Below are positions 22,365 through 46,082 of a stretch of 64,000 bases of DNA, in pieces (position 1 is the stretch's first letter; each line of letters opens with the position of its first letter). Made by a program: the position numbers and the translations under genes. Source of the DNA: an uncultured Eisenbergiella sp. GTDB lineage: Bacteria > Bacillota > Clostridia > Lachnospirales > Lachnospiraceae. The notes beneath the pieces are model-generated. The model made no database searches and had not been told where the DNA came from. It saw nothing but the letters and a program-made list of their open reading frames with translations. The stretch lies in assembly GCA_947626995.1 (NCBI GenBank), contig CANQUI010000001.1, positions 59,234 through 123,233 on the forward strand, in the 5' to 3' direction.

Positions 22365-23963
22365 ATGAGACAAGGGCCGGAGGCAGATCATATCATTTTC
22401 ACCAGGAGCGAGATCCTGTTTTACGTGTTTTTTTGCGTGATGCTGTTTTCCAAAGGGATGGGCTGGTATGACGGGATGCCGCAATATCGGATCTGTCTGC
22501 TCATCGGCGCCGCATGTCTGATGGCGAAGCTGCTTTTGTCGCGTTACACGCTGCAGCAGTTTTGCATGGCGGCGGTTTTGGGGGGCCTGGGGCTGATCAG
22601 CTATCTGCTGTCTGGGGAAAAGGGAATGTTCGTCTGCATGATGGTCGTCATCGGCATGAAGGATGTGCCCGTGCGCCGGGCGTTTCTGGCGGGAGGCCTG
22701 GTATGGGGCGGCGTGTTTGCCTGCCGCGTCCTGCTTTTTTTGACCGGCATACAGCGGGGCATCCCGTTGGTGCACAATAAGCTGGGGCTGGGACATATTT
22801 TCCGCTGGAGTATGGGATATCCGCATCCCAATGTGTTTCATATCTCTTATGTGATCCTGACGGCGTTTTTGTTCTACCTGATCCGCTGGAATCAGAAAAA
22901 GAAATTGTTCGCGGCCGTTCTCGCCGCCTTTTTGGGCAATTGCCTGATCTTTCTGTACTCGGTAAGCTTTACGGGGTTTCTCCTGACTGGCATCTATCTG
23001 GCGGGAGTGGCCTATTTTGAACTGCGGCCGCGGTTTTTGAAATGGGAAAAACGGGGGATCCTATGCGTGTTTCCCCTCTGTCTGATATTTTCCCTGGCGG
23101 CGCCTTTTCTGCCTCAGGGCCGGCTGTTTGAGCTGCTCAATAAAATGATGAATACCAGGCTTTCCCTGTCCCGGTATTTTTTGTTTACCTATCCGGTTTC
23201 GCTCTTCGGACAGCGGATCACGGTGCAAAATTCGGATCTGACCATGGACAACTCCTATGTGTTTGCGCTGATGACGTATGGAGCGGTGCTCTTTCTTTTG
23301 TTGATGGGAATTTATTTCTTCCTGATCCGGTATATGGTAAGGGAAGAAAAAAGAAAGGAACTGGCCATTACGCTGGGGTTTCTGATCGCCGGCATTTCGG
23401 AACCGTTTTTGTTTAATACGTCGTTTAAAAATATCAGCCTGCTCTTTGTGGGACATTATCTCTATCATCAGGCGGGATATTTAAAGACCGGGCTTCCTGC
23501 CGTGCAGATCGGGATTTGGGACTGGGACAAAAGCACCGTCCGGATGCCGGAGACAGCGGCCGCATGGCTTTTTCGGCAAAAGGAGAGAGGAAAACAAATC
23601 CGGCGCGGGGCGGCAGGGCATAAGGCTCTTGTGACGGCCTTTTGCCTGACGGCCGGTCTTTGCGGCGGGCTCTTTTATGCAGAAAAGACGGAAGCGCCCC
23701 GCTCCTATCTGGTGCCTGTGGAGCTCTGTGATTTTTCACAACAGAAGCCTTTTAAGCTGACACAGCAGGAAAGAATCCGGGAGGAAGAGGCGGGCGCTTC
23801 GATCCCGGTTTTGGTGGATGACAAAACGCGATTGTATCGGTTCGACGGAAATCTGATCCTGCTGGAACGGCTGCGCGGAACGATGGGAGCCGTCCTCTTG
23901 TCCGGCCTGTGCGGTCTGATACCGGGCGTGGGCGTTTCGCTTTTACTGGAAAAAAGAAAGTAG
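22365..23963 (+). CDS. Polytopic membrane protein, O-antigen polymerase/ligase-like
   Basis: Many TM segments, GHIFRWSMGYPHPNVFHISYVILTAFLFYLIRW; C-terminal soluble region then TM. Confidence 0.65.
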   Translation: MRQGPEADHIIFTRSEILFYVFFCVMLFSKGMGWYDGMPQYRICLLIGAACLMAKLLLSRYTLQQFCMAAVLGGLGLISYLLSGEKGMFVCMMVVIGMKDVPVRRAFLAGGLVWGGVFACRVLLFLTGIQRGIPLVHNKLGLGHIFRWSMGYPHPNVFHISYVILTAFLFYLIRWNQKKKLFAAVLAAFLGNCLIFLYSVSFTGFLLTGIYLAGVAYFELRPRFLKWEKRGILCVFPLCLIFSLAAPFLPQGRLFELLNKMMNTRLSLSRYFLFTYPVSLFGQRITVQNSDLTMDNSYVFALMTYGAVLFLLLMGIYFFLIRYMVREEKRKELAITLGFLIAGISEPFLFNTSFKNISLLFVGHYLYHQAGYLKTGLPAVQIGIWDWDKSTVRMPETAAAWLFRQKERGKQIRRGAAGHKALVTAFCLTAGLCGGLFYAEKTEAPRSYLVPVELCDFSQQKPFKLTQQERIREEEAGASIPVLVDDKTRLYRFDGNLILLERLRGTMGAVLLSGLCGLIPGVGVSLLLEKRK

Positions 23964-23971
23964 GGTATGGG

Positions 23972-25867
23972 ATGGAAGAAGAACTGAAATACTGCAGGAT
24001 ACTGGGGACAAAGATCCACGTAATCACCATGGATAAGACCGTGGAATATCTGGACAGGCATCTGGAGCGGATACGGGGCGGATATGTGTGCGTCTCCAAC
24101 GTGCATACCACCGTTATGGCGTTTCGGGATCCGGATTATCAGAAAATCCAAAACGGCAGCGTACTGAATCTGCCGGACGGCAAGCCCCTGTCCATCGTGT
24201 GCCGTCACAGGGGATTCAAAGAGGCCGCCCGGGTGCCGGGACCGGATCTGATGCCGCGGATCTTTGCGCTTTCCGAAAAGAGGGGATACCGGCATTACTT
24301 TTACGGCAGTTCGCCGGAGACCTTAAAAAAACTGCGGGAGATGCTTCAAAAAACCTATCCGGATATGGTGATCGCCGGCATGGAATCCCCGCCTTACCGG
24401 CCGCTTTCCAGGGAGGAAGACGAAGCGGCGGTGGAGCGGATCAATGAAAGCAGACCGGATTTTATCTGGGTGGGGCTGGGCGCCCCCAAACAGGAAATCT
24501 GGATGGCCAAACACATGGGAAAGGTATCCGGCGTGATGCTCGGCGTGGGAGCGGGATTTGACTTTCTGGCAGGGACCGTGAAACGGGCGCCGAAATGGAT
24601 GCAGGAAGCCTGTCTGGAATGGCTGTTTCGGCTGCTGCAGGATCCCAGACGGCTGATCCCCCGATATGTGGACACCAATTTTACGTTTCTTCATGAGGTG
24701 GCCAGGGAAAACCGACGGCGCAGGAAGGAAAAGCCGTTTCGGATCGCCATGATCGGGCATAAACGGATCCCTTCCCGGGAGGGCGGCGTGGAAATGGTGG
24801 TGGATGCGCTGGCCACCCGGCTGGTGCGCATGGGATATCAGGTGGACGCCTACAATCGCTCCGGATATCATGTCTCCGGGAAACAGTTTGATAAGAGAAG
24901 GGGAAAGTATTATAATGGGATCCGGGTCTATACGATCCCGACTTTTAATTGCAGCAGCCTAAACGCCATCGTCTATGCGGCGCTGGCTTCCGTCCGGGCG
25001 CTGTTTGGCCGCTACGACGTGATCCATTTCCATGCGGAAGGCCCCTGCATTATGCTCTGGCTGCCGAAACTGTTCGGGATCCGGACGGTGGCGACGATAC
25101 ACGGGCTGGACTGGCAGCGTTCCAAATGGGGGAATTTTGCATCCGCCATGCTGCGGCGGGGGGAGAAAACCGCGGCGCGCTGTGCGGATGAAGTCATTGT
25201 GCTTTCCGAAAACATGCAGCGGTATTTTTGGGAAACCTATGGGCGCCGGACCGTTTTTATCCCCAACGGGATAGAAAGACCGGAGCGCAGAGATCCGGAA
25301 TTCATCCGGGAAACCTACGGCCTGAACGGACGGGATTATATTCTGTTTCTGGCGCGTATCGTGCCGGAAAAAGGACTGCATTACCTCATCGAAGCCTTTT
25401 TGGGCATCGAGACGGACAAGAAGCTGGTGATCGCCGGCGGCAGCAGCCATTCCCAGGAATATATGAAAAAGATTACGGATATGGCGACGCAGGACGAACG
25501 GATCCTTATGACCGGCTTTGTACAGGGAGAAATGCTGGCGGAGCTGTATTCCAACGCATACTGTTTTGTCCTGCCCAGCGATGTGGAGGGAATGGCTTTA
25601 AGCCTTCTGGAGGCCATGAGCTACGGAAACTGCTGCATCGTCAGCGACATCCGGGAAAATACGGAGGTCGTGGGAGAAAAGGCGCTGCGCTTTGAAAAAG
25701 GGAATGTAGAATCCCTGCGGGCGGTTTTAAAAAGGGCGCTGGACGAGGAGCGGCTGTGCGAACAATACCGTTTGGAAAGCGCCGACTATATTTGTCAGAA
25801 ATACGATTGGGATAAAGTCGTCTTGCAGACGGCGGCGCTGTATGCGGGAAAGGATAAAAACGCATGA
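23972..25867 (+). CDS. Bifunctional glycosyltransferase: N-terminal GT26 (WecG/TagA/CpsF) fused to C-terminal GT4
   Basis: N-terminus: VSNVHTTVMAFRDPDYQKI, WVGLGAPKQEIWMAKHM, GVGAGFDFLAGTVKRAPKWMQ; C-terminus: IPSREGGVEMVVDALATRLVRMG, LPSDVEGMALSLLEAMSYGNCCIVSDI. Confidence 0.93.
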   Translation: MEEELKYCRILGTKIHVITMDKTVEYLDRHLERIRGGYVCVSNVHTTVMAFRDPDYQKIQNGSVLNLPDGKPLSIVCRHRGFKEAARVPGPDLMPRIFALSEKRGYRHYFYGSSPETLKKLREMLQKTYPDMVIAGMESPPYRPLSREEDEAAVERINESRPDFIWVGLGAPKQEIWMAKHMGKVSGVMLGVGAGFDFLAGTVKRAPKWMQEACLEWLFRLLQDPRRLIPRYVDTNFTFLHEVARENRRRRKEKPFRIAMIGHKRIPSREGGVEMVVDALATRLVRMGYQVDAYNRSGYHVSGKQFDKRRGKYYNGIRVYTIPTFNCSSLNAIVYAALASVRALFGRYDVIHFHAEGPCIMLWLPKLFGIRTVATIHGLDWQRSKWGNFASAMLRRGEKTAARCADEVIVLSENMQRYFWETYGRRTVFIPNGIERPERRDPEFIRETYGLNGRDYILFLARIVPEKGLHYLIEAFLGIETDKKLVIAGGSSHSQEYMKKITDMATQDERILMTGFVQGEMLAELYSNAYCFVLPSDVEGMALSLLEAMSYGNCCIVSDIRENTEVVGEKALRFEKGNVESLRAVLKRALDEERLCEQYRLESADYICQKYDWDKVVLQTAALYAGKDKNA

Positions 25868-27066
25868 AGGTATTGATCGTCAATAAATTCCTGCATCCCA
25901 ACGGCGGATCGGAAACCTACATTTTCGAATTGGGCAGACAGCTTGCGCGCATGGGCCATTCGGTGCAATATTTCGGGATGGAGCATGAGGGGCGTATCGT
26001 GGGCAACCGCATCGGCTGCTATACGGACGACATGGATTTTCATTCGGGGAAATGGGAAAAGCTTTTCTATCCGTTCCGGATCCTGTATTCCCGTCAGGCG
26101 TCGGCCCGGATGAAAAAAGTGCTTTCGGATTTTGATCCGGACGTGGTGCATCTGAATAATTTTAATTTTCAGCTCACGCCGTCGGTGATCTATGCGGTGC
26201 GCAAATACGAAAAACGCACCGGAAAAAAGATTCGGATCGTCTATACGGCTCACGACTATCAGTTGGTTTGTCCCAATCATCAGCTGTTGGTTCCCGGCAC
26301 GGGGGAGTTGTGCACGCGCTGTCTGGGAGGCAGGCAGTGGAACTGCGCCAAATACCGCTGCATCCACAATTCCCGGGTAAAGAGCCTGCTGGGGAGCCTG
26401 GAGGGGAGGCTGTACGAGCGGCTGAAAACATACCGTTATCTGGATGTGATCGTCTGCCCCAGCCGCTTTATGGAAGGAATGTTGCGGCAAAACAGCACGC
26501 TTTGCGGGCGGACGGTGGTGCTGCACAATTTTATCGGCGCCATCGAACCTCCTGTAGCCGACAAGAAAGATTATGTGTTGTATTTCGGACGGTATTCCCG
26601 GGAAAAGGGAATCGATACGCTGCTGGAGGCCTGCCGGCGGCTGCCCCACATTCCTTTTGTGTTTGCGGGGAAGGGGCCGTTGGAGGAGCAGGTGAATTCC
26701 ATGGAGAATATCGAAAACAAAGGATTTTTAAACGGCCCGGAATTATACGCCCTCATCGCCGGTGCCCGCTTCACCGTTTTTCCGTCCGAGTGGTATGAAA
26801 ACTGTCCGTTTTCGGTGATGGAGTCCCAGGTCTGCCGGACGCCGGTGATCGCCTCCCGTCTGGGCGGGACGCCGGAACTGCTTTTGGAAGAAAAAACCGG
26901 GGAATTTTTTGAAGCGGGGAACGCAGCGCAGCTGGCGGAACGCATCCAAAAGCTCTGGGAAGACCGAAAGAAGCTGGCGCGGTATACGGAAAACTGCCGG
27001 GCGGTTTCCTTTGCCGGGGCGCCGCAATACTGTGAAAAACTGCTGCAACTCTATCAGGAGGGATGA
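25864..27066 (+). CDS. GT4 family glycosyltransferase
   Basis: GGSETYIFELGRQLARMGHSVQYFG; FGRYSREKGIDTLLEACRRLP; PSEWYENCPFSVMESQVCRTPVIASRLGGTPE. Confidence 0.94.
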   Translation: MKVLIVNKFLHPNGGSETYIFELGRQLARMGHSVQYFGMEHEGRIVGNRIGCYTDDMDFHSGKWEKLFYPFRILYSRQASARMKKVLSDFDPDVVHLNNFNFQLTPSVIYAVRKYEKRTGKKIRIVYTAHDYQLVCPNHQLLVPGTGELCTRCLGGRQWNCAKYRCIHNSRVKSLLGSLEGRLYERLKTYRYLDVIVCPSRFMEGMLRQNSTLCGRTVVLHNFIGAIEPPVADKKDYVLYFGRYSREKGIDTLLEACRRLPHIPFVFAGKGPLEEQVNSMENIENKGFLNGPELYALIAGARFTVFPSEWYENCPFSVMESQVCRTPVIASRLGGTPELLLEEKTGEFFEAGNAAQLAERIQKLWEDRKKLARYTENCRAVSFAGAPQYCEKLLQLYQEG

Positions 27067-27068
27067 GA

Positions 27069-28076
27069 ATGGCAAGAAGAACGTTATACGGAACCGTCAT
27101 CGTGACGTATCGCTGCAATGCGCGCTGTAATATGTGCGACTGTTTTAAGGATCCTTCCCGGCCGGAAGAGGAGATCACGTTAGAGGAGATCAAAAAACTG
27201 CCGGAGATGGCCTTTACCAATATCACGGGAGGAGAGCCGTTCATCCGGCGGGACATCCCGGACATCGTGAGGGAACTTTATAAAAAATCGGACCGGATCG
27301 TGATCTCCACCAACGGATATTTTACGGACCGGATCATCGCGCTGTGCAAAGAGTTCCCGCAGGTGGGCATCCGGATCAGCATCGAGGGCCTGCAGGAGAC
27401 CAACGATAAGATCCGCGGGATCCCGGACGGCTTTCAAAGAGGATATCAGACGTTAAAGACGCTGGTGGAAATGGGACACCCGGACGTGGGCTTTGGGATG
27501 ACCGTACAGGACATGAACTGCGAGGATCTGGTGCCGCTGTATCATATCGCCAACGACATGGGGATGGAATTTGCCACGGCCGCGCTGCATAATTCGTTCT
27601 ATTTTCGAAAGACGGACAATCGCATCGAAAACAAAAGGAAGGTGGCCGAAAATTTTGAGAAACTGATCAACGAGCTGCTGGCCAGTTCTTCCCCCAAAAA
27701 GTGGTTCCGCGCCTACTTTAATCACGGACTGATCAATTATATTTACGGGAACAAACGGCTGCTTCCCTGCGATATGTCCCAAAACGCCTTTTTTATCGAT
27801 CCGTTCTGCGACGTGATTCCCTGCAACGGCATGGAGAAAAAAGCGGTTATGGGCAATCTGCGCAGGCAAAGCTGGGAGGAGCTGTGGAATTCCAGGCAGG
27901 CGCAAAAGGTGCGCGAATGTACCAAAAACTGCGACCGGAACTGCTGGATGATCGGCAGCGTGTCCCCGGCCATGCACAAGTATATCTGGGTGCCGGGCTG
28001 GTGGGTGATCCGGCATAAGTTTTTCAAGGGAGGGAAATATTCATTAAATGAAAATGATTTCATACGGGAAAAATAA
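27069..28076 (+). CDS. Radical SAM/SPASM domain protein
   Basis: CNARCNMCDC (CxxxCxxC), NITGGEPFIRRD, C-terminal Cys cluster CDVIPCN...GNLRRQSWEELWNS...CTKNCDRNC; AGGAGG RBS 8 nt before ATG 27069. Confidence 0.9.
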   Translation: MARRTLYGTVIVTYRCNARCNMCDCFKDPSRPEEEITLEEIKKLPEMAFTNITGGEPFIRRDIPDIVRELYKKSDRIVISTNGYFTDRIIALCKEFPQVGIRISIEGLQETNDKIRGIPDGFQRGYQTLKTLVEMGHPDVGFGMTVQDMNCEDLVPLYHIANDMGMEFATAALHNSFYFRKTDNRIENKRKVAENFEKLINELLASSSPKKWFRAYFNHGLINYIYGNKRLLPCDMSQNAFFIDPFCDVIPCNGMEKKAVMGNLRRQSWEELWNSRQAQKVRECTKNCDRNCWMIGSVSPAMHKYIWVPGWWVIRHKFFKGGKYSLNENDFIREK

Positions 28077-29689
28077 GCTCCGTCTTATGGGGGAAGAACT
28101 GGGAAGGTATCAAAAGGAATTGGGGATCCTGTTTGTCGTCGCTTTTGTCGTTTATTTTCCTTTCTGGGGAGGACAGCTGAATAATGCGGACGGTTTTTTA
28201 TATGGAGTGATCCGTCATGGACAGAATTATGGCTGGGAGGATGCGCAGGGAAGATTTTTGCTTCGCTGGCTGGATGAATGGAGGGACGGATTTATCATCC
28301 CGCCCATGATAATTGGGATCAGCATCCTCTTGCTTTTGATGTCGGCTGTGCTTATCTGGCATATTTTTTCCTGTGAAAGTACCGCAGAACGTATTCTGGT
28401 CGGGGCTTTTGTGATTTTCTCACCTTCTGTGATGAACACATTTACTTACTATTACTGTGCGGATTCCTATATGCTGTCTTATTTTCTGGCGGTACTTGCG
28501 GCGGCGTTGCTGATTCGAGGGGGGGGGTAAAATCTCGCTGGTCATCTCCGTGCTTTTGCTGATCTGCTCTATGAGCATTTATCAGGCTTATTTTGTGGTG
28601 ACGGTAATCCTGTGCCTCATATGGACGATTCGGGAGATTTTATCAAATAGATGGGAATGGAAAGCGCTGGCGGGGAGGATCCTTCGACAGGTTTTTGGAG
28701 GAATTGCCGCATGTCTTGGGTATTTATTCTTGTTGTTTTTGCTGGAACGGACAGGCTATCTTGGACTTACAAAAACCCGGGGAATGAACAGGATGTTTCA
28801 GAATATGTTTCTATGGCTGCTGCAATCCGTAAAAGACGCCTATCGTGTATTTTATGAATACTATTTTACGGATGTCCTGATCTGCAATTCCTGGAGAAGG
28901 AGAGACTTTTTTAATGCGATTGTCCTGTTGCTGATCCTTTTTTCACTGGGGATCCTTTTCAAAGAAAGGAAAACACACTCTCTTGTCAATTTGGGGCTTC
29001 TGGTCTGTCTGGTGTCGTTTTTCCCGATCTCTCTGACGCTGATCGTGATTCTCGCTCCGGGAGCGTCCGTTTATGCGGAAACGGGCATGTTGATGCTGAC
29101 GGGAATGAATTATTTCTATATTTTTTTGCTGTTGCTTATGTCCGCAATCAAAAAGAAATCAGCCGGCTTTCGGTTGATCCAAACAGCCGCCGTAGGAGTA
29201 TGTTCGGTGCTGCTTTTGATTCAGATCGTTTTTGCGGGCGTTTTTGCGAAGTCGATTCAGATGGAGCAGACAAAGGTGCAGATGTTGGCGTATCAGATAG
29301 AAAACAGGATAGAAACTCTGGACGATTATGCGTCAGGACAGACGGTGCTTGTAACGGGGAGACCACAATGGGGCAATTATCCCGCAACGCAGGATCGGAC
29401 CGGCAATATTACAAAGGGTATGATCAGCGCCTATACGCTCACTTTTGGCGCGGATGAGCAGGTGAGCGCAGGTTGGATCAGTCTGTTTGCGTATTTTTGC
29501 GGAGTACGATATGAAGAATGTAATGCGGAGGACAGAAATTGCATTTTGGCCTCCAAGGAATTCGCCCGGATGAACGATTTCCCTGCAAAGGATTCTGTGA
29601 AAAGGATAGGGAATGTAATCGTAGTCAGGCTCAGTCCTGGGGTGGATACGATCCAGCGAAAGCTGAAGGAAGCGGAAAACGGAGTATGA
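28048..29689 (+). pseudogene. GtrII-like glucosyltransferase membrane protein, frameshifted at a 9-G tract (candidate phase-OFF gene)
   Basis: ORFs 28048-28530 and 28550-29689 are halves of one polytopic protein; removing one G from 28519-28527 joins them (RGGGKISLVISVLLLICSMSIYQAYFVV), predicted 546 aa. Confidence 0.85.
28519..28527 (+). repeat. Homopolymeric G9 tract inside coding sequence
   Basis: CGA GGGGGGGGG TAA read directly. Confidence 0.95.
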
Positions 29690-29690
29690 C

Positions 29691-30782
29691 ATGAAGGTTC
29701 TGATGCTGGTAAACTGGAAAATGGAATATAAAGACGCTGTGCCGGAGGACAAACAGCCGCCGGATTATTATGTGAAAGGCGTTCCCTACTGGTTTTTCCG
29801 CTATTTTAAAGACACAAAGGACTGGGACGTGGACGTGGTGGACTGCCGTTCGTTCGGGGCGCTGGAGCGCCTGGAACAAGAGAAGATCCGGTTTTATATC
29901 TGGCAGACGATAAAATGCCTGCCGCGGTTGAAGCGCTATGACCTTGTCCTTTCCCACGGCATGCAAAGCGGCATCGTCCTGTGTTTGTGGCGGCGTCTGT
30001 TTGGCAAAGGAACGTACCGGCATGTGGTCTTTGATATCGGGGCGTTTAACAGCGCCCGAGAATCGGGGGGCTCCTTGCGCCTCATGCAGTTTGCGGGCAA
30101 ATCCCTGGACGGCGTGATCTACCACACCAGAGAGCAGCGGGGCTATTATGAGAGATGTCATCCGTGGCTTTTGGATAAGATCCGGTATATTCCCTTTGGG
30201 ACGGATACGGATTTTTTTACGCCGGGCGCAGAAAAGAAAGCGGAGGGAGCGCCCTATATACTTTGTCTTGGTCATAACAAGCGGGACTGGGAGACGCTGC
30301 TTGCCGCCTACGCGCTCCTGCGCAAAAGATGGGACCACATACAGCGGCTGCCCGACTTAAAGCTGATCGGAAAAGGAAAGATCGACGCTGCCATAGACGG
30401 CGTGACTGCGCTGCCGTCCGTACCGGTGCGGCGTATGATGGAAGAAATGGAAAACGCCTGTTTTTGCGTCCTGCCCCTGCAGTCCTTTCCCTACTCTTTC
30501 GGCCAGATGACGCTTTTGCAGCAGATGCTTTTCCAAAAGGCGGTGATTGCCGCGGATGTGCCTTCCCTGCGGGACTATGTGCAGGACGGACAGGACGCCC
30601 TGTTATACGAACCGCAGAACGCGGCCATGCTGGCGGAACAAATGGAACGGCTCATTCTGGATCCAACGCTGTGCCAACAGATCGGCGGCAGGGCGGCGCA
30701 ATCGGTGCGCACCAAGTGGAACGAGCGGCGGATGGCCGGGGAAATACAGGAATATCTGACGACGGTATTGCAGTCGTCGTAA
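29691..30782 (+). CDS. GT4-type glycosyltransferase
   Basis: MLVNWKMEYKD, RYIPFGTDTDFFTPG, LPLQSFPYSFGQMTLLQQMLFQKAVIAADVPSLRDYV. Confidence 0.85.
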   Translation: MKVLMLVNWKMEYKDAVPEDKQPPDYYVKGVPYWFFRYFKDTKDWDVDVVDCRSFGALERLEQEKIRFYIWQTIKCLPRLKRYDLVLSHGMQSGIVLCLWRRLFGKGTYRHVVFDIGAFNSARESGGSLRLMQFAGKSLDGVIYHTREQRGYYERCHPWLLDKIRYIPFGTDTDFFTPGAEKKAEGAPYILCLGHNKRDWETLLAAYALLRKRWDHIQRLPDLKLIGKGKIDAAIDGVTALPSVPVRRMMEEMENACFCVLPLQSFPYSFGQMTLLQQMLFQKAVIAADVPSLRDYVQDGQDALLYEPQNAAMLAEQMERLILDPTLCQQIGGRAAQSVRTKWNERRMAGEIQEYLTTVLQSS

Positions 30783-30812: not shown

Positions 30813-31850
30813 ATGGAAGACCCTATCGTAAGCGTGATCGTGCCGGTCTACAATGTGGAAAAATATCTGGAAAGATGTATCCGTTCCCTGCAGAAACAGA
30901 CGCTCAAACAGATCGAGATCCTGCTCATTGACGACGGATCCACGGACGGCAGTGGACAACTTTGCGATACGCTGGCAAAGACGGACGAGAGGATCCATGT
31001 GCGGCATAAAAAAAACGCGGGACAGGGGCTTGCCAGAAACGACGGGCTTTTCGCCGCGAAAGGCGATTATGTGCTGTTTGTGGACTCGGACGATTATATT
31101 GAACCGGATACCTGCCTTCGCCTGTCCCGGGTGATGCGGGAGCAGAAGGCGGATCTTTGCTGCTTTGGCTACCAGATCGAGACGCCGGAAGGAGAGCTGT
31201 TTTATCGGGCGCGTCTGACGGCGGACTGCTATGAGGGCGAAGCGGTGCGCAGGCGCTTTGCGCTGCATTTTTTCGGAGACGATCCAAAAGACGAAAAGCT
31301 GCGGGGCGTCTCGGCCTGCATGACCATGTTTCGCCGCAGCATCATTCAAGAGCACGGAATCCGGTTTCCCTCGGAACGGGAGTTTTTAAGCGAGGACACC
31401 ATTTTCAATCTGGATTTTTGCCTGTACGCGCAAAAAGCCGTGGTGCTGCCGTCCTATTTTTACCATTACTGCCAGAATCCGGATTCTTTTTCCCATGCGT
31501 ACCGCCCGGATCGCTTCGCGCTTACCGTGGTGCTTTGCCGGACGCTGTTTTCGTACGCTGCGCGCTACGGAGTGGAGGAAGAAACCAAAAACCGCATCCG
31601 CATGTCGCTGTGGGTCAGCCTGATGGAGTGTATCAAACAGGAGACGAAAAGGATCGGGCAGGTCCCTTTAAAGACCGTCCGGCAGAGAGTGAAAGAATTC
31701 TGCGACGATCCGTTGACTCAGGATGCGCTGAACGGATTGTCCGCCGGGGAATTTCCGGCAAAACAGAGGATGTTCCGGATGCTGCTGCGCCGCCGGATGT
31801 TTTTGGCGGTGCTGTTTGCCGCATGGCTTCGTAACCGACAGGGATTATAA
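30813..31850 (+). CDS. GT2 family glycosyltransferase
   Basis: VSVIVPVYNVEKYLERCIRSLQKQTLKQIEILLIDDGSTDGS; FVDSDDYIE. Confidence 0.94.
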   Translation: MEDPIVSVIVPVYNVEKYLERCIRSLQKQTLKQIEILLIDDGSTDGSGQLCDTLAKTDERIHVRHKKNAGQGLARNDGLFAAKGDYVLFVDSDDYIEPDTCLRLSRVMREQKADLCCFGYQIETPEGELFYRARLTADCYEGEAVRRRFALHFFGDDPKDEKLRGVSACMTMFRRSIIQEHGIRFPSEREFLSEDTIFNLDFCLYAQKAVVLPSYFYHYCQNPDSFSHAYRPDRFALTVVLCRTLFSYAARYGVEEETKNRIRMSLWVSLMECIKQETKRIGQVPLKTVRQRVKEFCDDPLTQDALNGLSAGEFPAKQRMFRMLLRRRMFLAVLFAAWLRNRQGL

Positions 31851-31863
31851 GAAAGGACCGAAC

Positions 31864-32877
31864 ATGGGAAAAGAACCTTTGATCAGTGTGATCATGTCGG
31901 TTTATAACGACAGGGATTATATCCGACAGGCGCTGGACAGCCTGTTTGCCCAGACTGAACAGGACTTTGAGATCATCCTTGTGGACGACTGTTCCACGGA
32001 CGATACGGTTTCGATCATAGAGACATATCAGGACGAGCGGATCAGGCTGTACCGGAATGAAAAAAACCTCGGACTGACCCGAAACCTAAACCGAGCGTTA
32101 CAGCTGGCCCGGGGACAGTTTATCGCCCGGATGGACGGGGACGACATCTGCAGGCCCCGGCGCTTTGAAAGGCAGCTTGCCTTTCTGCGCGCCAATCCGT
32201 CGCTGATGCTGATCAGCTGCCGGACCCACATGTTTGGACAGCAGGATCTGATCTCGGATATATCCGGGAGCGGAGAAAAACTCAAGGCGATGATGCTGGT
32301 CCGTCCGGTGCTGGCCCATCCGGGCTTTATGATGCGGGCGGAGCTGATCCGCCGGGAGGGATTCTCCTATGATGAGACCTTTCGAAGCGCCCAGGATTAT
32401 GACTTCGCGGCCAGGGTAGCGCAGAAATTTCCCATCGGCGTGACGCAGGAGGTTCTGTTGGACTACCGCGTACACAAAAAGCAGGTGTCTTGTCAGGACG
32501 GCGAGAAACAGTTTTCCAACGCGGACCGGGTCAGGCAGATGCAGCTGGAGCGGCTGGGCGCAGCGCTGACTCCTTTGCAGTGGGCGGCCTATCGGGACTG
32601 GGCCGGGGAAAAAAGAAACTGCGCAAAGGACGTCTATCGGCAGGCGGCCTCCGTAATTGATACGCTGATGGCCGCCAATTCGCGGACAGGCCTTTACGAT
32701 CCGGACACGCTGGAGACGGAGCTGAAAAAACTGCTGTTTCAGTGGATGCTGCGAAGCCGCTCCTGGTCCGTCTGCCTGCAGGCCGTCACGGTATGCGGCG
32801 TTTCCGGACGGAACCTGAAGCTGCTTACGGAAAAGGCGGGGCAGATCCTGTCGCATAAGCGGAAAGGGGAAGCATAA
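31864..32877 (+). CDS. GT2 family glycosyltransferase
   Basis: ISVIMSVYNDRDYIRQALDSLFAQTEQDFEIILVDDCSTDDT; ARMDGDDI. Confidence 0.93.
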   Translation: MGKEPLISVIMSVYNDRDYIRQALDSLFAQTEQDFEIILVDDCSTDDTVSIIETYQDERIRLYRNEKNLGLTRNLNRALQLARGQFIARMDGDDICRPRRFERQLAFLRANPSLMLISCRTHMFGQQDLISDISGSGEKLKAMMLVRPVLAHPGFMMRAELIRREGFSYDETFRSAQDYDFAARVAQKFPIGVTQEVLLDYRVHKKQVSCQDGEKQFSNADRVRQMQLERLGAALTPLQWAAYRDWAGEKRNCAKDVYRQAASVIDTLMAANSRTGLYDPDTLETELKKLLFQWMLRSRSWSVCLQAVTVCGVSGRNLKLLTEKAGQILSHKRKGEA

Positions 32878-32878
32878 G

Positions 32879-33766
32879 ATGGAGAAGGAACCAATCTCGC
32901 TGAAACGAAGACTATATCGAAAACTCTGCCGGCTCTTTGGGAAACGGATGCCGGACCGGCTGTATCTGAAGCTGCTTTATCAGGTCCGCATGGGGAAACC
33001 CCTGCATCTGGATCCGCCGGAGGATTTTAACGAAAAGCTGCATTGGCTGAAGCTGTATGACCGAAACCCGGCCTATTCCAAAATGGCGGACAAGTACGAG
33101 GTCAGAAGCTTTGTGAAGGAAAAACTGGGAGAAGAATATCTGATCCCGCTTCTGGGCGTATGGGACGACGTGGACGAAATCGACTTTAACGCTCTGCCGG
33201 ATCAGTTTGTGCTCAAATGTACCCACGATTCCGCCAGCGTCTGTATCTGTAAGGACAAAAAGACGTTTGACCGCAGGGCGGTATCGGACCGGCTCAGACA
33301 GGCCATGGGCAGAAATTATTTTTATGCCGCCCGGGAATTCCCGTATCGGGACATAACCCCGAGAATCCTTGCGGAGACCTACATGGTGGATGAATCCGGC
33401 ACGGAGCTGAAGGATTACAAGGTATATACCTTTCACGGAGAACCCTACCTGATTCAGGTGGACTTTGACCGGTTTGAGAACCACAGGAGGAATCTCTATA
33501 CGACGGACTGGCAGTTTATTGATGAAACCATCGAATATCCCAAGGATCCTACGGTCCAAATTCCCAGGCCCCAGAGGCTTTCCGAAATGCTGGAATGTGC
33601 GAAAAAGCTGGCGGAGGGGACGCGCAGCCTGCGCACGGATTTTTACAGTATCAACGGGAAGATTTATTTTGGAGAGATCACCTTTTATCAGGAGGCCGGA
33701 TTCGCCCACTTTGAACATCAGGCTTACGCAAAGAAACTGGGAGAGATGATCCGGCTGCAGGATTGA
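32879..33766 (+). CDS. TupA-like ATP-grasp family protein (often annotated glycosyltransferase-associated)
   Basis: FNEKLHWLKLYDRNPAYSKMADKYEVRSFV, FVLKCTHDSASVCI, LRTDFYSINGKIYFGEITFYQEAGF. Confidence 0.85.
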   Translation: MEKEPISLKRRLYRKLCRLFGKRMPDRLYLKLLYQVRMGKPLHLDPPEDFNEKLHWLKLYDRNPAYSKMADKYEVRSFVKEKLGEEYLIPLLGVWDDVDEIDFNALPDQFVLKCTHDSASVCICKDKKTFDRRAVSDRLRQAMGRNYFYAAREFPYRDITPRILAETYMVDESGTELKDYKVYTFHGEPYLIQVDFDRFENHRRNLYTTDWQFIDETIEYPKDPTVQIPRPQRLSEMLECAKKLAEGTRSLRTDFYSINGKIYFGEITFYQEAGFAHFEHQAYAKKLGEMIRLQD

Positions 33767-33849
33767 GTGCACAGAATTACAGAAATCGTTTCATGGCGAT
33801 AATTTGACGGTCATAGAGTTCTAAAGTATCGGTTTTTTGTTATCTTGTA

Positions 33850-33878
33850 TTGAAAAATCATGGTTTCCTTGGTATATT
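33850..33878 (+). promoter_or_regulatory. Sigma-A-type promoter, copy 1 of a repeated leader
   Basis: TTGAAA (33850-33855), 17 nt, TATATT (33873-33878); near-identical to 49703-49731. Confidence 0.65.
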
Positions 33879-33959
33879 TAACTATGATTTTTAAGTTGCA
33901 AAGAAGATTTCGGAATCCTTTTGCAGATAACCCTACAAATGGGATCATATTACAAAGCG

Positions 33960-34230
33960 GGAAAAAAATGAAGAAGAAATCGTGAATAATTTCACCAAAA
34001 TCACTTTTTTTGGGGGTTGAGAAATGTTTAGAATTTATGCAATAAGCCTTGAAATTAGTATTTTATTTTGGTATGTTTATACCTGAACCGTACGGCTTTT
34101 TATTTTTGTGGCATGGGAAAGGGATACCATAACTAAGGTGAAGAAACGGGGATCCGATTTCTATTCGTCCTGCTTTTATTGGACGCCGGTTATTTTGTTT
34201 CGCGGACAAAACCCGACTATCTGGAATAAA
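33960..34230 (+). pseudogene. Degraded 5' relic of the GT-C-like paralog family (see 47474 and 49794)
   Basis: ATGAAGAAGAAATCGTGA resembles ATGAGGAAGAAACCGTGG at 49806; further on a frame reads GIRFLFVLLLLDAGYFVSRTKPDYLE* versus FLWIVVLICLGGGYYLSRTKPVYLEYK of the intact paralog. Confidence 0.6.
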
Positions 34231-34264
34231 AGCACAAAAAACAAGAGACAGGAGCAAAAGTAGA

Positions 34265-35242
34265 ATGAAAAAAGTACTCATTACAGGAATCACCGGATTC
34301 GCGGGAAGTCATTTGACAGACTATCTTTTGGAAAATACCGACTACGAGATCCATGGAATAAAACGGATGAACTCCAATCTGAGAAACATCCGTCACGTGC
34401 TGGACAGGATCAGCCTGCACGACGGGGATCTGCTGGACGAGAGCAGCCTGATCAACATCCTGCAAAACGTGCAGCCGGATCAGATCTATCATCTGGGCGC
34501 ATTGAGCTGGGTTACGCCTTCCTGGACCATGCCTGCGGTATATATGCAGACAAACGCCATTGGCACCATCAATCTGTTTGAGGCGATGCGTGTGACGGGA
34601 TGCCATGCACGGGTGCTGACCAGCGCCACGCCGGAAGAATTCGGGGATGTTCCTCCCGAGATGATCCCGATTACGGAGGAGACAAGGATTGCGCCCATCA
34701 ATCCCTATGCCGCCAGCAAGGCGGCGCAGGATATGGTCTGCATCACTTATCATGCCAGCTACGGGATGGATATTGTCAGGACCAGAGCGTTTAATCATGA
34801 AGGGCCGCGCCGGGATATCCACGGCGCCATCGCATCGTTCGCATATCAGATCGCCCGGATCGAAAACGGGCTGCAGGAGCCGGTCATCAAGGTAGGAAAC
34901 CTTGGCGCCACCCGCAATTTTACAGATGTAAGAGATACGGTCCGCGCCTACTATCTGGCGATGGAAAAGGGCGTGAGCGGTGAATTGTATGTGATCGGTA
35001 CGGATCAGATTCATACGATGAAAGAAATGCTGGATATGCTGGTGGCCTCTTCCGAGAGGGCGGCCGACATCCGGATCGAAGTGGATCCCGCCCGGGTAAG
35101 ACCGACGGAACTGATGACTTTTATCGGCGATTACAGCAAGTTCAGGTCCCTGACGGGCTGGGAGCGTCGGTACAGCCTGGAGGAGACATTAGAGAGCGTA
35201 CTGAACTATTGGCGCGATTTTGTCAAAAAAGGGATGTATTAG
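34265..35242 (+). CDS. GDP-mannose 4,6-dehydratase-like SDR (possibly GDP-heptose 4,6-dehydratase)
   Basis: GITGFAGSHLTDYLL, GDLLDESSL, TSATPEEFGDVP, NPYAASKAAQDMV, NHEGPRR; context with GDP-heptose genes. Confidence 0.82.
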   Translation: MKKVLITGITGFAGSHLTDYLLENTDYEIHGIKRMNSNLRNIRHVLDRISLHDGDLLDESSLINILQNVQPDQIYHLGALSWVTPSWTMPAVYMQTNAIGTINLFEAMRVTGCHARVLTSATPEEFGDVPPEMIPITEETRIAPINPYAASKAAQDMVCITYHASYGMDIVRTRAFNHEGPRRDIHGAIASFAYQIARIENGLQEPVIKVGNLGATRNFTDVRDTVRAYYLAMEKGVSGELYVIGTDQIHTMKEMLDMLVASSERAADIRIEVDPARVRPTELMTFIGDYSKFRSLTGWERRYSLEETLESVLNYWRDFVKKGMY

Positions 35243-35266
35243 ACAATGGACCCGGGAGGACGGCGC

Positions 35267-36181
35267 ATGAAAATACTGATCACAGGAGCAGGGGGATTTA
35301 TAGGCAAAAGACTGGCCAAAAGGCTGTCGGAAATACCGGGGATGGAAATTTACGGCCTTTCCCGGGAAGGAACAAATCTGTTTCCGGGCGTTGTGCCTGT
35401 CCGGTGCGATATACTGGATGCCGACGGAGTGGAACGGACGTTTCAAAACTGCCGGTTTGACAGAGTCATTCACCTTGCCGCCATTACGGAACATAAGGAA
35501 GTCGTAGACCGGAAGCTAAAAACGTTGGAAATCAATTTGCAGGGGACCATGAACCTTCTGGACAGTTTTAACAGACACTGTACGGGAAGCCAGTTCCTCT
35601 ATGCGTCCACGGGAAAGGTTTACGGAGAAACCGATGAAATGCCCATATCGGAACGGGCGCTGGTCAATCCCACGACCGTTCTGGGAAAGGCAAAGCGGAT
35701 TACGGAAAATATCGTGGATTTTTATGCGGTGCCAGCCAACCGATATTTAATTTGCCGGATCTTCAATATCTATGGGGAATTTCAGAAAAGGAATTTCGTG
35801 GTGCCGACCATTCTGGATCAGTTGGACAGTCCGGCGATCCACCTCGGGAACCTGCATGACAAGCGGGATTATCTGTATATTGACGATCTGATCGCTGCGT
35901 TTCTTGCCTGCATCCGTTCTCCTTTCAAATTTGAGAACGTGGACTATGTAAATATCGGAAGCGGGACGGCTGTCAGCGTGGCCGATATTCTGAAAGAAAT
36001 GGAGACGCTTCTGGGAAGAAAGCTGCAGGTGGAAACGGATGCTTCCCGGTTTCGTAAGGATGAGACATCGGTGGAGATCTGCGACCATGGCAGGCTCACC
36101 GAACGGACGGGATGGGAACCGGAGTTTTCGCTGCGGGAAGGGATGGAGAGAACGCTGAAAAAAGAGGGGCGTCTTCCATGA
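35267..36181 (+). CDS. NAD-dependent epimerase/dehydratase (SDR)
   Basis: ILITGAGGFIGKRLAKRL; STGKVYGETDEMP; RDYLYIDDLIAAF. Confidence 0.88.
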   Translation: MKILITGAGGFIGKRLAKRLSEIPGMEIYGLSREGTNLFPGVVPVRCDILDADGVERTFQNCRFDRVIHLAAITEHKEVVDRKLKTLEINLQGTMNLLDSFNRHCTGSQFLYASTGKVYGETDEMPISERALVNPTTVLGKAKRITENIVDFYAVPANRYLICRIFNIYGEFQKRNFVVPTILDQLDSPAIHLGNLHDKRDYLYIDDLIAAFLACIRSPFKFENVDYVNIGSGTAVSVADILKEMETLLGRKLQVETDASRFRKDETSVEICDHGRLTERTGWEPEFSLREGMERTLKKEGRLP

Positions 36182-36212
36182 CGTTTGGGATGCAGTGTGA
36201 AAAGGCGAAAAG

Positions 36213-38249
36213 ATGACCAAAAAGACAGGGATCCTGTGTATCCTGATTCTGATTCTGTCAGGCATCGGATATGGAGCAGCATGGATCAGGCCGGCCTATC
36301 TGGAATATCAGACGATAGGCGGGCAGGAGGGAGCAATCGTTTCTGCGGAAGACGGGAAACAAGAAAATGTCGTGTCATTTCGGATGCCGTATGATATTTT
36401 ATGCGGCGTAGTGACGGATTCGGATAACGGCGCCCAATCGTATACGATTGTAGAGGCAAAGACCCAAAAGACCCTTTTGAAAAGCAGGGCAGAGAATGGG
36501 GTTTTTGTGCAAAGGCTTACCCATAACGTGCCGGTAAAGAAGAATGAAATCTATGAACTGCATCTGGAGGCAGGCAAAGCTCCAAAACCGTCCGGGGTGG
36601 GGATCGGGGGCGGGCCGCTCCTTCGGATCTACGGGGGCGACCGCAGCCGGTGGTGGTTTGCATGGACGACTTTGCTTGCCGTCTTGCTGTTTGCCTTTGG
36701 ATTCTGCCGGATCCGACTGATGAAGAAGGGGCGGGATTGGAGACAGAGCCGGGTTTTTTGCAGTCTGCTTCTTTTCTTTCTTATTTTATCCCTTTGGTCC
36801 GTATTTGCCTTACAGGACCGCCATGGCGACGAAACCGCCGTGATTATGGAAGGCATGCTTCTGGCAAAGGGGAAGGTGCTGTATCGGGACTGCATTGAAC
36901 AGCATATGCCGTTGGCCTCCTATTTGTGCGCGGTCTTTGCCGGATTGGGGGCGGAAACAATTTTGCAGTTTCGTCTTTCCTGGTATCTGTTGTTATCCGC
37001 GATCTGGGGATGCCTGTACTGGCGTCATGGGGGCCGTTTCAAAAAAAGGATATTTTTTCTTCCCCTCCTGCATGCCCTGTTCGTTCCTTCCGGCGTGGTC
37101 CCCTATGGGTACGTGTTACTGGGAGACGGCATATTTGAGATCAGTATGATCGCTTTTATTCTGGAATTTCTCCGGTACCTGGAGGACCAAAGGCTGGGCT
37201 GGGGACGTTGCGCTATTTTCTCGGTCTGTTTCCTGGGATGTTTCGGTACGGAGTTTGTCAGCCTTTACGCCCTGTTTGGCCTTTTCCTGTTCGCGCTTTA
37301 TAAAGAGGCGGGATATTGGAAAGGGACAGGCCCCGGGATCCGAAAGGTGATCGGGCGATATGGCAGGCTGGCGATCTGCTTTTTGATACCGGCCGCTGCC
37401 GTTGCCGCATATTTTATGTCTCATCACGCCCTCCACGATCTGTATGATCAAACCTACCGGTTTAATACGGAAGTTTATTCCGCGTATAATGGAGGACTCG
37501 GGATCAATAAGATCACGCCGTTTTTTTACGGGATTCAAAACTGCCTCAAATTTGCGGTCATGCAGATCCGATCTTTTTTGAACCCGTACGGTCTGATGCG
37601 TCTGCTGATATTCGCGGGGGCTGCGTTCTCCGTATTTTCGCTGATAAAGAGCAAAAGATATGAGACCGCGACCTGTCTTGGTTTGTGTATTTGCCTGTGC
37701 GCCATCCGATTGATCAACAATAAGAATGATCTTTCTTATCACGGGGCCTGCGCGTGGGGGCTTATGATTCTTGCTGCGGCGCTTTATTGGAAGCCGTTTC
37801 CGGGAAGAAGCGGAAGGATTTTGACCGCCTGTGTTCTGCTTCTGGCGGTTGGGATTTATACGGGATCCTTTTATAAGGCGCTGTGCAACCCGGAACCGAC
37901 GGTCTCGGACCTTGAGCACGCGGTGGTGGAACGGACGGAGGAAGGAGAAGCCGTTTTTATGGACGCTTTTGATACCCTCTCCCCCTACCTGCTCTATCGG
38001 AACCGGTATCCGGCCAACCGGCTGCTTTGGATGCTGCCGTGGTACCTGGACCGGTATGAACAGACGGCGATCGACGATTTAAACGCGCATCAGCCCGGAC
38101 TTGTTATTTTTGATGAATCGAGAAGAATATGGGGATCCCCGGTGCGTTTCGATGCACTGCCGGATGCGCTGCGGGAGAATTATACCCAACTTTCCGATGA
38201 TGAGGCGGATGGCTGGAAGTATCGGGTCTGGGTGCGAAACGCTCCATGA
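36213..38249 (+). CDS. GT-C-like polytopic membrane protein, paralog 1
   Basis: HGDETAVIMEGMLLAKGKVLYRDCIEQHMPLASYLCAVFAGLGAETILQFRLSWYLLLSAIWGCLYWRH; same architecture as 47474 and 49794 genes. Confidence 0.72.
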   Translation: MTKKTGILCILILILSGIGYGAAWIRPAYLEYQTIGGQEGAIVSAEDGKQENVVSFRMPYDILCGVVTDSDNGAQSYTIVEAKTQKTLLKSRAENGVFVQRLTHNVPVKKNEIYELHLEAGKAPKPSGVGIGGGPLLRIYGGDRSRWWFAWTTLLAVLLFAFGFCRIRLMKKGRDWRQSRVFCSLLLFFLILSLWSVFALQDRHGDETAVIMEGMLLAKGKVLYRDCIEQHMPLASYLCAVFAGLGAETILQFRLSWYLLLSAIWGCLYWRHGGRFKKRIFFLPLLHALFVPSGVVPYGYVLLGDGIFEISMIAFILEFLRYLEDQRLGWGRCAIFSVCFLGCFGTEFVSLYALFGLFLFALYKEAGYWKGTGPGIRKVIGRYGRLAICFLIPAAAVAAYFMSHHALHDLYDQTYRFNTEVYSAYNGGLGINKITPFFYGIQNCLKFAVMQIRSFLNPYGLMRLLIFAGAAFSVFSLIKSKRYETATCLGLCICLCAIRLINNKNDLSYHGACAWGLMILAAALYWKPFPGRSGRILTACVLLLAVGIYTGSFYKALCNPEPTVSDLEHAVVERTEEGEAVFMDAFDTLSPYLLYRNRYPANRLLWMLPWYLDRYEQTAIDDLNAHQPGLVIFDESRRIWGSPVRFDALPDALRENYTQLSDDEADGWKYRVWVRNAP

Positions 38250-38315
38250 CCGGATGCCTGTCCCGGTTCCGGCATCAAACATTTTTCGAAGGAAGAGAAA
38301 GGAATATTCACCGAT

Positions 38316-38903
38316 ATGGAATATCAGGAGATGATCCGAAAATATATCGCAGATGAGATGGATGTGCTCAGCAGGCTGGATGTGGAGGCGATCAACGCCG
38401 TGATGCGGGAGTTAAAAGGCGCGTTTGACCGCGGCAGCACCGTTTACGTATTCGGCAACGGCGGCAGCAGCGCCACGGCCAGCCATTATCAGAATGATTT
38501 CAATAAAGGGATCTCGGAGCATACGGAGCAAAAATTCCGTTTCTGCTGTCTGAACGACAATATCGCCACGGTCATGGCGGTTGCCAACGATATCGGGTTT
38601 GAAGAGGTGTTTCGTTTTCAGCTGCGCGGGCGGTTAAAGCCGGGAGATCTGGTGTTGGCAATTTCCGGAAGCGGCAACAGCAAAAATGTGCTCAATGCGG
38701 CGGAATATGCCAAAGAGCAGGGAAATACCGTCGTGGCGATCACCGGATATGACGGCGGCAGGCTGGATGAACTGGCGGACTGTCATTTGCATGCCCCCGT
38801 TATGAGCATGCAGATCACGGAAGATATTCATATGATCTTTGATCATCTGATGATGAGTATATTCTGTAAAACCATGTGTCAGATCGATCATTTGAAAAAA
38901 TAG
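38316..38903 (+). CDS. gmhA: Phosphoheptose (sedoheptulose-7-phosphate) isomerase, SIS domain
   Basis: YVFGNGGSSATASHYQNDFNKG, LAISGSGNSKNVLNAAEYAK, MQITEDIHMIFDHLMM. Confidence 0.87.
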   Translation: MEYQEMIRKYIADEMDVLSRLDVEAINAVMRELKGAFDRGSTVYVFGNGGSSATASHYQNDFNKGISEHTEQKFRFCCLNDNIATVMAVANDIGFEEVFRFQLRGRLKPGDLVLAISGSGNSKNVLNAAEYAKEQGNTVVAITGYDGGRLDELADCHLHAPVMSMQITEDIHMIFDHLMMSIFCKTMCQIDHLKK

Positions 38904-39054
38904 ACGAAAGACGAAGACGGGAGATATTGTCTTTCCTGCTGTGTGGCAGCGCATATTTACCTATGATTATGGCCAGTCGGTTTTTTATCGTTAATTTGCG
39001 GGAAAATAATGATTGCGTCAGCACAATGCCAAATGAGAAAGGATGAGGGAAATC

Positions 39055-39798
39055 ATGGGAAAAAGCATTTCTATCGTGATGTTGGTTTATAACGAAGCAG
39101 AGATCATTGAGAAAGTCATACGCGAGTATTATGAAAAGGTTTTTGTAAAGCTGGAGGATGCGGAGTTTATCGTGGCGGAAGACGGCAGCCGGGACGGCAC
39201 AAAGGAGATTCTGGCCCGTCTGGCGCAGGAACTGGATATCCGTCTGGTCAGCGGCGAGGAACGCAAAGGATACGTAAAAGCGTACCAGGATTCCATCCGT
39301 CTGCCCCGGAAGGATTATATTTTTTTCACCGATTCCAGCGGGAAGCATCTGCCGGAGGATTTCTGGGAGATGTATCCGTTTACGGAAACGTATGACGTGA
39401 TTTCCGGGTATAAAGTCAAACGTAAGGATCCGTTTTACCGGATTGTGATGACGCGGGTGTTCAATACATTGGTCAATTTGTATTTCGGGACAAAGTTTAA
39501 GGATATTGACAGCGGCTTTAAGCTGATCCGGCGTGAAGCGATGCTGGATATCCTGCAGGACGACTGGATCTGTACGGATCTGATCTCGTTTGAAACGATG
39601 GTACGGCTTTCCTATCGCGGGTATCGGATTAAGGAGGTTCCGGTGCGGCACCGTCCCCGGGAAAACGGTCCGTCCAGAGGACTGCCTTTGAAAAAGATTC
39701 CCAAAGTGATTCGGATGGTGCTGTCCAATTTCGCCGCCGTCAAGAAAGACGCCAGAATCTGCGCGGCCAAAAGCAGAAAACAGGGGGACGAGAAATAA
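39055..39798 (+). CDS. GT2 family glycosyltransferase (dolichol-phosphate mannosyltransferase-like)
   Basis: SISIVMLVYNEAEIIEKVI, VAEDGSRDGTKEIL, DIDSGFKLIRREAM, KEVPVRHRPRENGPSRG. Confidence 0.9.
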   Translation: MGKSISIVMLVYNEAEIIEKVIREYYEKVFVKLEDAEFIVAEDGSRDGTKEILARLAQELDIRLVSGEERKGYVKAYQDSIRLPRKDYIFFTDSSGKHLPEDFWEMYPFTETYDVISGYKVKRKDPFYRIVMTRVFNTLVNLYFGTKFKDIDSGFKLIRREAMLDILQDDWICTDLISFETMVRLSYRGYRIKEVPVRHRPRENGPSRGLPLKKIPKVIRMVLSNFAAVKKDARICAAKSRKQGDEK

Positions 39799-40790
39799 TG
39801 ATTATTACCAGAACCCCGTTTCGCATCAGCTTCGCGGGCGGCGGCAGCGATCTCCCGTCTTTTTACCGGCGGCACGAGGGCTGCGTACTGTCCACTACGA
39901 TCAACAAGTATATGTATGTGATGATCCATCCTACTTTTAACCGGCTGGATACCGTGGTAAAATACAACCAGACCGAGACCGTGCAGGACATCCGCATGAT
40001 ACGCCACCCTATCGCCCGACAGCTTTTGCTGGACCATAAAGTATGTGGGGTCGAGATCGTCAGCACCGCCGACATCCCTTCCGGTACGGGCCTGTCCACC
40101 TCCAGCGCGTATACGGTGGGCCTGATCCACGCGCTGCATGCGTTTTCGGGCAAGTTCTGTTCGCAGGAGCGTATCGCCCGGGAGGCCTGCGAACTGGAAA
40201 TTGAAAAGCTGGGAGAGCCCATCGGCAAGCAGGATCAGTACGGAACGGCCGTGGGCGGCATAAAGTTCATCCGTTTCTGTCAGGACGATTCCGTGGAAGT
40301 CGATCCGCTCCCCGTTTCCCGCAGGACGTTAGAGGAGCTTGACAACAATCTGCTGCTGTTTTATACGGGAATCACCCATTCGGCAGGAGAGATACTCAGA
40401 GAGCAAAACGCCAACCTGACAGGCGAACAGGAAAAGTTCCGGAATCTCGTCCGCATGACGGAGCTGGCGTACGAGATGCGGGACGCGCTGCTGCGGGCGG
40501 ATCTGGACGGATTCGGCCATATCCTGAATGAAAACTGGCTGTTAAAACGCCGGCTGGCCAGTCAGATCTCCAATGATGTGATCGAGAAATACTACAGGCT
40601 GGCCCTGGATAACGGGGCGCTGGGCGGAAAGCTGCTGGGCGCGGGCGGCGGCGGGTTTTTGCTGTTTTATTGCCCGAAGGAGAAGCAGAAACGCCTGCGC
40701 AGCGCGCTGAGCGATCTGGTGGAGCTGCCCTTTCACATGGAGACCAGCGGCACGAAGGTAATCTATATCGGAGAAAAGGATTGGGACTGA
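39798..40790 (+). CDS. hddA: D-glycero-alpha-D-manno-heptose-7-phosphate kinase (GHMP kinase)
   Basis: ITRTPFRISFAGGGSDLPSFY, STADIPSGTGLSTSSAYTVGLIHAL, GGKLLGAGGGGFLLFY. Confidence 0.9.
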   Translation: MIITRTPFRISFAGGGSDLPSFYRRHEGCVLSTTINKYMYVMIHPTFNRLDTVVKYNQTETVQDIRMIRHPIARQLLLDHKVCGVEIVSTADIPSGTGLSTSSAYTVGLIHALHAFSGKFCSQERIAREACELEIEKLGEPIGKQDQYGTAVGGIKFIRFCQDDSVEVDPLPVSRRTLEELDNNLLLFYTGITHSAGEILREQNANLTGEQEKFRNLVRMTELAYEMRDALLRADLDGFGHILNENWLLKRRLASQISNDVIEKYYRLALDNGALGGKLLGAGGGGFLLFYCPKEKQKRLRSALSDLVELPFHMETSGTKVIYIGEKDWD

Positions 40791-42124: not shown

Positions 42125-42125
42125 A

Positions 42126-43589: not shown

Positions 43590-43591
43590 AA

Positions 43592-45094: not shown

Positions 45095-45127
45095 CGGTCG
45101 CCATGCAAAATAAAAAGGAGGCAGAAA

Positions 45128-46075: not shown

Positions 46076-46082
46076 ACAGAAG

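Follow-up and report, generated by a model that had tools for sequence, protein, structure and literature searches.

A surface-glycan locus with a split GtrII-type gene

The window analyzed here is a stretch of 64,000 nucleotides from an uncultured Eisenbergiella sp. of the family Lachnospiraceae. It carries many glycosyltransferases together with enzymes for nucleotide sugars, including a set of the heptose type, and this part of the window was therefore taken to be a surface-polysaccharide locus (Table 1). The stretch from 30813 to 47387 includes group 2 glycosyltransferases, a TupA-like ATP-grasp protein, GDP-mannose 4,6-dehydratase-type enzymes and epimerases. The SIS, GHMP kinase and NTP-transferase/HAD genes found between 38316 and 47387 resemble a GDP-heptose synthesis set. 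The host lineage is of the Gram-positive type and is not known to have lipopolysaccharide O-antigen. Within the locus, a gene of the GtrII type shares an operon with the radical SAM gene starting at 27063 and with the group 1 glycosyltransferase gene starting at 29691. A scan for promoters and terminators gave results barely above those of shuffled sequences, and was given no weight.

Table 1. Features of the surface-glycan locus and of its two split genes (window coordinates).
Feature	Positions	Strand	Basis
WecG/TagA and group 1 glycosyltransferase fusion, upstream	23909-25867	+	Pfam
Group 1 glycosyltransferase, upstream	25864-27066	+	Pfam
Radical SAM/SPASM protein gene, overlapping the start of the split gene	27063-28076	+	ORF, Pfam
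GtrII-type glycosyltransferase, N-terminal part, 160 aa in the G9 register	28048-28530	+	ORF
G9 tract, proposed slippage site	28519-28527	+	Sequence
GtrII-type gene, remainder in the +1 frame (stop 29687-29689)	28528-29689	+	ORF, Pfam
Glycosyltransferase group 1 gene, beginning 2 bases past the stop of the split gene	29691-30782	+	ORF, Pfam
Remaining surface-glycan locus	30813-47387	+	Pfam
Intact paralogue of the 47474 gene (53%), without tract	36213-38249	+	Alignment
Split 721-aa membrane protein gene, no Pfam family	47474-49640	+	ORF, Pfam
Second G9 tract, at the end of an N-terminal hydrophobic segment	47525-47533	+	Sequence
Intact paralogue of the 47474 gene (57%)	49794-51956	+	Alignment

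The preliminary description of this DNA had reported nine consecutive G with a stop codon directly 3' of them, a first ORF ending there and a second one carrying the same protein on in the +1 frame. Both the sequence, in which TAA occupies positions 28528-28530, and a check of the ORFs bear this anatomy out. Between 28514 and its stop at 29687-29689 the +1 frame is uninterrupted, with a GTG at 28550 as the first listed start, and translation in the G8 register, that is, with one G fewer, yields a single protein of 546 amino acids in which the peptide quoted earlier is exactly contained. In the 386 codons 3' of the tract there are no further disruptions. The proposed assignment to GtrII was also upheld when the joined protein was compared with Pfam (PF14264, E 1.5e-34; 120 bits against a curated cut-off of 30), the match extending over residues 61-359, across the break at residues 158-160, and covering positions 20-311 of the 317 in the profile. 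By hydropathy, the joined protein is polytopic, with approximately nine hydrophobic segments, and the tract codes for part of an Arg-Gly-Gly-Gly stretch in a short polar loop flanked by two of them. The gene has a G/C tract of at least seven nucleotides (G9) inside its reading frame, and a change of one G in the length of this tract would exchange the full-length for the truncated product and vice versa.

As neither gtrA nor gtrB was detected among the scanned neighbor ORFs of the locus, the gene is a member of PF14264 but not part of a gtrABC operon; the genome does encode two GtrA-family genes, both on other contigs. Searches for close homologues returned none in the GTDB genomes, none among 98 relatives, where the best match had 26% identity, and none among viral contigs; the PDB yielded no relatives. 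In the loci fetched for distant GtrII homologues, G tracts of at least seven were absent, while one of these genes has a C7. In a genome of the same genus (G002), a G9 near a contig end is out of frame with the next ORF, the C-terminus of which is weakly similar to the GtrII-type protein (23% over 130 amino acids; locus L033).

A second gene broken at a G9 tract

A second frame-breaking G9, overlooked in the preliminary description, was found in the same glycan locus. This tract interrupts the 47474 gene 17 codons past its ATG; the displacement is +1, as in the GtrII-type gene. The product is likely glycosyltransferase-like, as judged by context only. It is one of three paralogous large membrane proteins without a Pfam family, and this three-member family was seen in none of 60 relatives. 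The joined reading of the 47474 gene aligns with both intact paralogues without interruption through the tract (LLLGGGIYISQRRPVYLEY versus CLGGGYYLSRTKPVYLEY), which shows that the joined frame is the right one. Moreover, the paralogue at 49794-51956 spells the same Gly-Gly-Gly as GGC GGC GGT, so that the G homopolymer represents a synonymous choice rather than something required by the protein.

Long G runs in the window and in the genome

In the window, G5 occurs 45 times and G6 nine times, G7 and G8 are absent, and G9 occurs twice. Dinucleotide shuffles predict 7.6 matches to G8 per window, and four were observed; resampling synonymous codons of the window's own proteins predicts 0.50 G/C runs of at least nine, with a probability of 0.09 of finding two or more. 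The count of long G runs, which by itself does not exceed chance in either the shuffles or the codon resampling, was thus rejected as evidence. Other features do not look like chance: the gap in run lengths between G6 and G9, the position of the two G9 tracts, each of which breaks a gene of one glycan locus, the intact frames at A/T runs of 7-8 in the ORFs of the window, and the rarity of G tracts of at least eight in the genome. Genome-wide, the 2.5-Mb draft has eight G tracts of at least eight, four G9 and four G8. Two of the G9 are the frame breaks described above and the other two lie outside long ORFs, while all four G8 are located in ORFs that stay open through the tract, among them those of another large membrane protein and of a sugar-transfer ATP-grasp protein. 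One in-frame G8, at position 1501 of another locus of this genome (L006, G000:C2:79201-82208), lies within a 712-aa membrane protein, and this gene could be a third contingency gene, currently ON. The genome encodes MutS, which counts against a switching reading.

These counts bear on whether the G9 of the GtrII-type gene could be an error of assembly or sequencing, the true sequence being G8 and the gene intact. Both tracts of the window are G9 and both genes would be open at G8, the four G8 tracts that the genome has at other sites lie in open ORFs, and the assembly is a draft of 125 contigs, with homopolymers being the usual site of errors. However, none of the approximately 35 A/T runs of 7-8 nucleotides inside ORFs of the window is associated with a broken frame, and the named relatives are short-read SPAdes assemblies. 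Assemblies of this kind rarely get the length of a nine-base homopolymer wrong. A mere error of assembly is possible but not favored, the one fact that speaks for it being that both tracts would be open at G8, and we consider it improbable. Even then, with the PhasomeIt threshold set at seven or more (PMC6321876), the G8 would still count as a candidate contingency tract, with the gene ON.

Poly-G tracts across the genus and in rabbit-gut relatives

Relatives were compared using one genome per species. G tracts of at least nine are found in 12 of the 13 genomes that their submitters labelled Eisenbergiella. According to ORF and Pfam analysis, the genes that contain them encode acyltransferase-3 proteins (PF01757; eight genes), MBOAT proteins (four) and FkbM methyltransferases (three), together with one methyltransferase, one sugar transferase, one epimerase and one DUF2142 protein; unrelated sites comprise a few genes (an ion channel and, on the C strand, a valyl-tRNA synthetase) and intergenic tracts. 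As the genus has some 107 acyltransferase-3 genes, only 0.14 such genes with a tract would be expected, against the eight found (Poisson P about 2e-12). Some tracts in glycan genes preserve the reading frame and others do not, with G10 tracts out of frame in two MBOAT genes (L027 and L043) and in the epimerase gene (L068), and for the acyltransferase-3 and MBOAT genes the tract recurs in homologous genes in both states. In the two relatives richest in tracts, 18 are in frame and one is clearly broken. A9 runs in these same two genomes also fall often in glycan genes (e.g., GT8 and flippase genes), which means that part of the association between tracts and glycan genes reflects locus composition, and the idea of a G-specific enrichment in glycan functions is weakened accordingly. 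None of ten A9-bearing genes tested encoded an acyltransferase-3 or MBOAT protein.

A search of GTDB with four acyltransferases of the genus led to rabbit-gut genomes labelled Eisenbergiella, Clostridia, Oscillospiraceae and Ruminococcus. Among the 11 best matches, eight have a G9 or G10 and one a C8 in the same place, namely past the start codon but ahead of the catalytic domain (L079-L089), while more distant homologues free of the tract begin directly at the domain and lack these glycines. One of the genes (L079) is ON while its paralogue L080, 89% identical, is put OFF by a single base at the edge of the tract; similarly, L085 is OFF and its homologue L084, 78% identical, is ON. Judged from sequence, this is how a translational contingency gene is laid out. 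In a family-wide search, 46 of 120 genomes contained a G10, and the 30 loci examined were a mixture of intergenic and regulatory sites with two acyltransferase-3 genes; the pattern is thus clear in the genus and its rabbit-gut relatives, and patchy in the family. Three records of Prevotella and other Bacteroidales type (L124, L147 and L148) have a G9 inside acyltransferase-3 homologues, though elsewhere in the protein, and in two of the three the tract is out of frame.

The comparison helps to weigh two further explanations for the split GtrII-type gene. It might be a young pseudogene, in which a single slip caused an ordinary loss of function and no switch is maintained; the product in the present register is truncated, and neither the GTDB genomes nor the 98 relatives provided a close homologue that would attest to conservation of the gene. 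We regard this as unlikely, though less so than an assembly error: the codons past the tract have stayed free of other damage, another gene in this locus carries an equivalent break while the other ORFs are intact, and similar tracts are found in related functions throughout the genus and outside it, in genes that are ON and in others that are OFF. Alternatively, slippage during transcription, or a programmed frameshift of the ribosome at the G run, could produce some full-length enzyme from a fixed G9, which is long enough for polymerase slippage to be conceivable. Recoding at homopolymers is known, mainly at A/T runs (PMC3711429). A TAA directly follows the G9, and the relatives, whose tracts differ in length and lie in or out of frame, fit a change at the DNA level better. 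Recoding is the least probable of these explanations.

A putative phase-variable switch

Overall, the suggestion made in the preliminary description, that of a candidate poly-G contingency gene in the OFF register, is well supported by the second G9-split gene, by the paralogues of that gene and by the ON and OFF tracts found across the genus. We estimate at about three in four the probability that the G9 at 28519-28527 mediates translational phase variation by poly-G slippage, with the GtrII-type gene currently OFF. This reading builds on the anatomy of the gene, its register, the intact 3' parts and the recurrence of both states in glycan-modification genes of relatives. In the proposed mechanism, slipped-strand mispairing at replication would alter the number of G in the tract. 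The G8 register, and by periodicity also G5 or G11, would give the 546-aa GtrII-type enzyme, while the G9 register would bring the stop directly past the tract into frame and leave a 160-aa fragment without most of the domain; as this is the register of the assembled consensus, the gene is predicted to be OFF there. The 47474-49640 gene may switch independently by the same mechanism, and with two independent G9 switches the locus could therefore show up to four surface states. We infer that tract length changes reversibly within the population, and that glycan decoration would change along with it.

Stochastic surface switching in gut commensals has mostly been ascribed to invertible DNA. The present results suggest that these gut commensals flip surface-coat genes ON and OFF by poly-G slippage, as pathogens such as Campylobacter do. 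The mechanism itself is already known elsewhere, and the more interesting part is the set of tracts across the rabbit-gut Clostridia. Gut Lachnospiraceae and other rabbit-gut Clostridia appear, on balance, to share a contingency repertoire of poly-G and some poly-C tracts for surface-glycan decoration, similar to a Campylobacter phasome but with independently acquired tracts. With comparable confidence, we would count acyltransferase-3, MBOAT, FkbM methyltransferase and GtrII genes as its members, with the tracts inserted after the start codon, upstream of the catalytic domain. If poly-G slippage does switch glycan decoration in Lachnospiraceae, the ON or OFF state of each tract is already present in published metagenome reads, and selection on these surfaces by phage, antibody or diet would be measurable without culture. 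Split genes of this kind are liable to be annotated as pseudogenes or as two proteins.

Comparison with known systems

In the literature searched, which excluded most subscription papers, no report on poly-G switching in Lachnospiraceae or Eisenbergiella was found, and the candidate is best placed beside better-studied systems. The protein resembles GtrII of Shigella phage SfII (PF14264) in being a polytopic membrane protein that matches nearly the whole model; unlike SfII GtrII, it belongs to a host of Gram-positive-type lineage and has no close homologue. As in the gtr operons of Salmonella and phage P22, the gene subject to phase variation, here a candidate, encodes a Gtr glycosyltransferase that decorates glycans; there, however, a gtrABC operon is controlled by an epigenetic promoter switch involving Dam and OxyR, whereas here the tract lies in the coding sequence (PMC2909390).

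The closest likeness in tract anatomy is with the poly-G genes of Campylobacter, where G8-G11 tracts lie within the reading frames of genes for surface-glycan enzymes and one base decides between ON and OFF, and where G9 is the commonest tract length (PMC6321876). In C. jejuni, tracts of at least eight mediate switching, with G9 making up 52% of the tracts in one large set (PMC6321876). The Eisenbergiella genome belongs to another phylum and has far fewer tracts (eight G runs of at least eight), and while the Campylobacter tracts are tied to experimentally demonstrated switching, that of the GtrII-type gene is known from sequence alone. The pilus genes of Bifidobacterium breve differ in that they concern the sortase pili of an Actinobacterium, with slippage measured by deep sequencing, whereas here glycan enzymes of a Lachnospiraceae member are seen in an assembly; nevertheless, they provide the example of a gut commensal in which slippage at an intragenic G tract decides a surface structure (PMC9187656).
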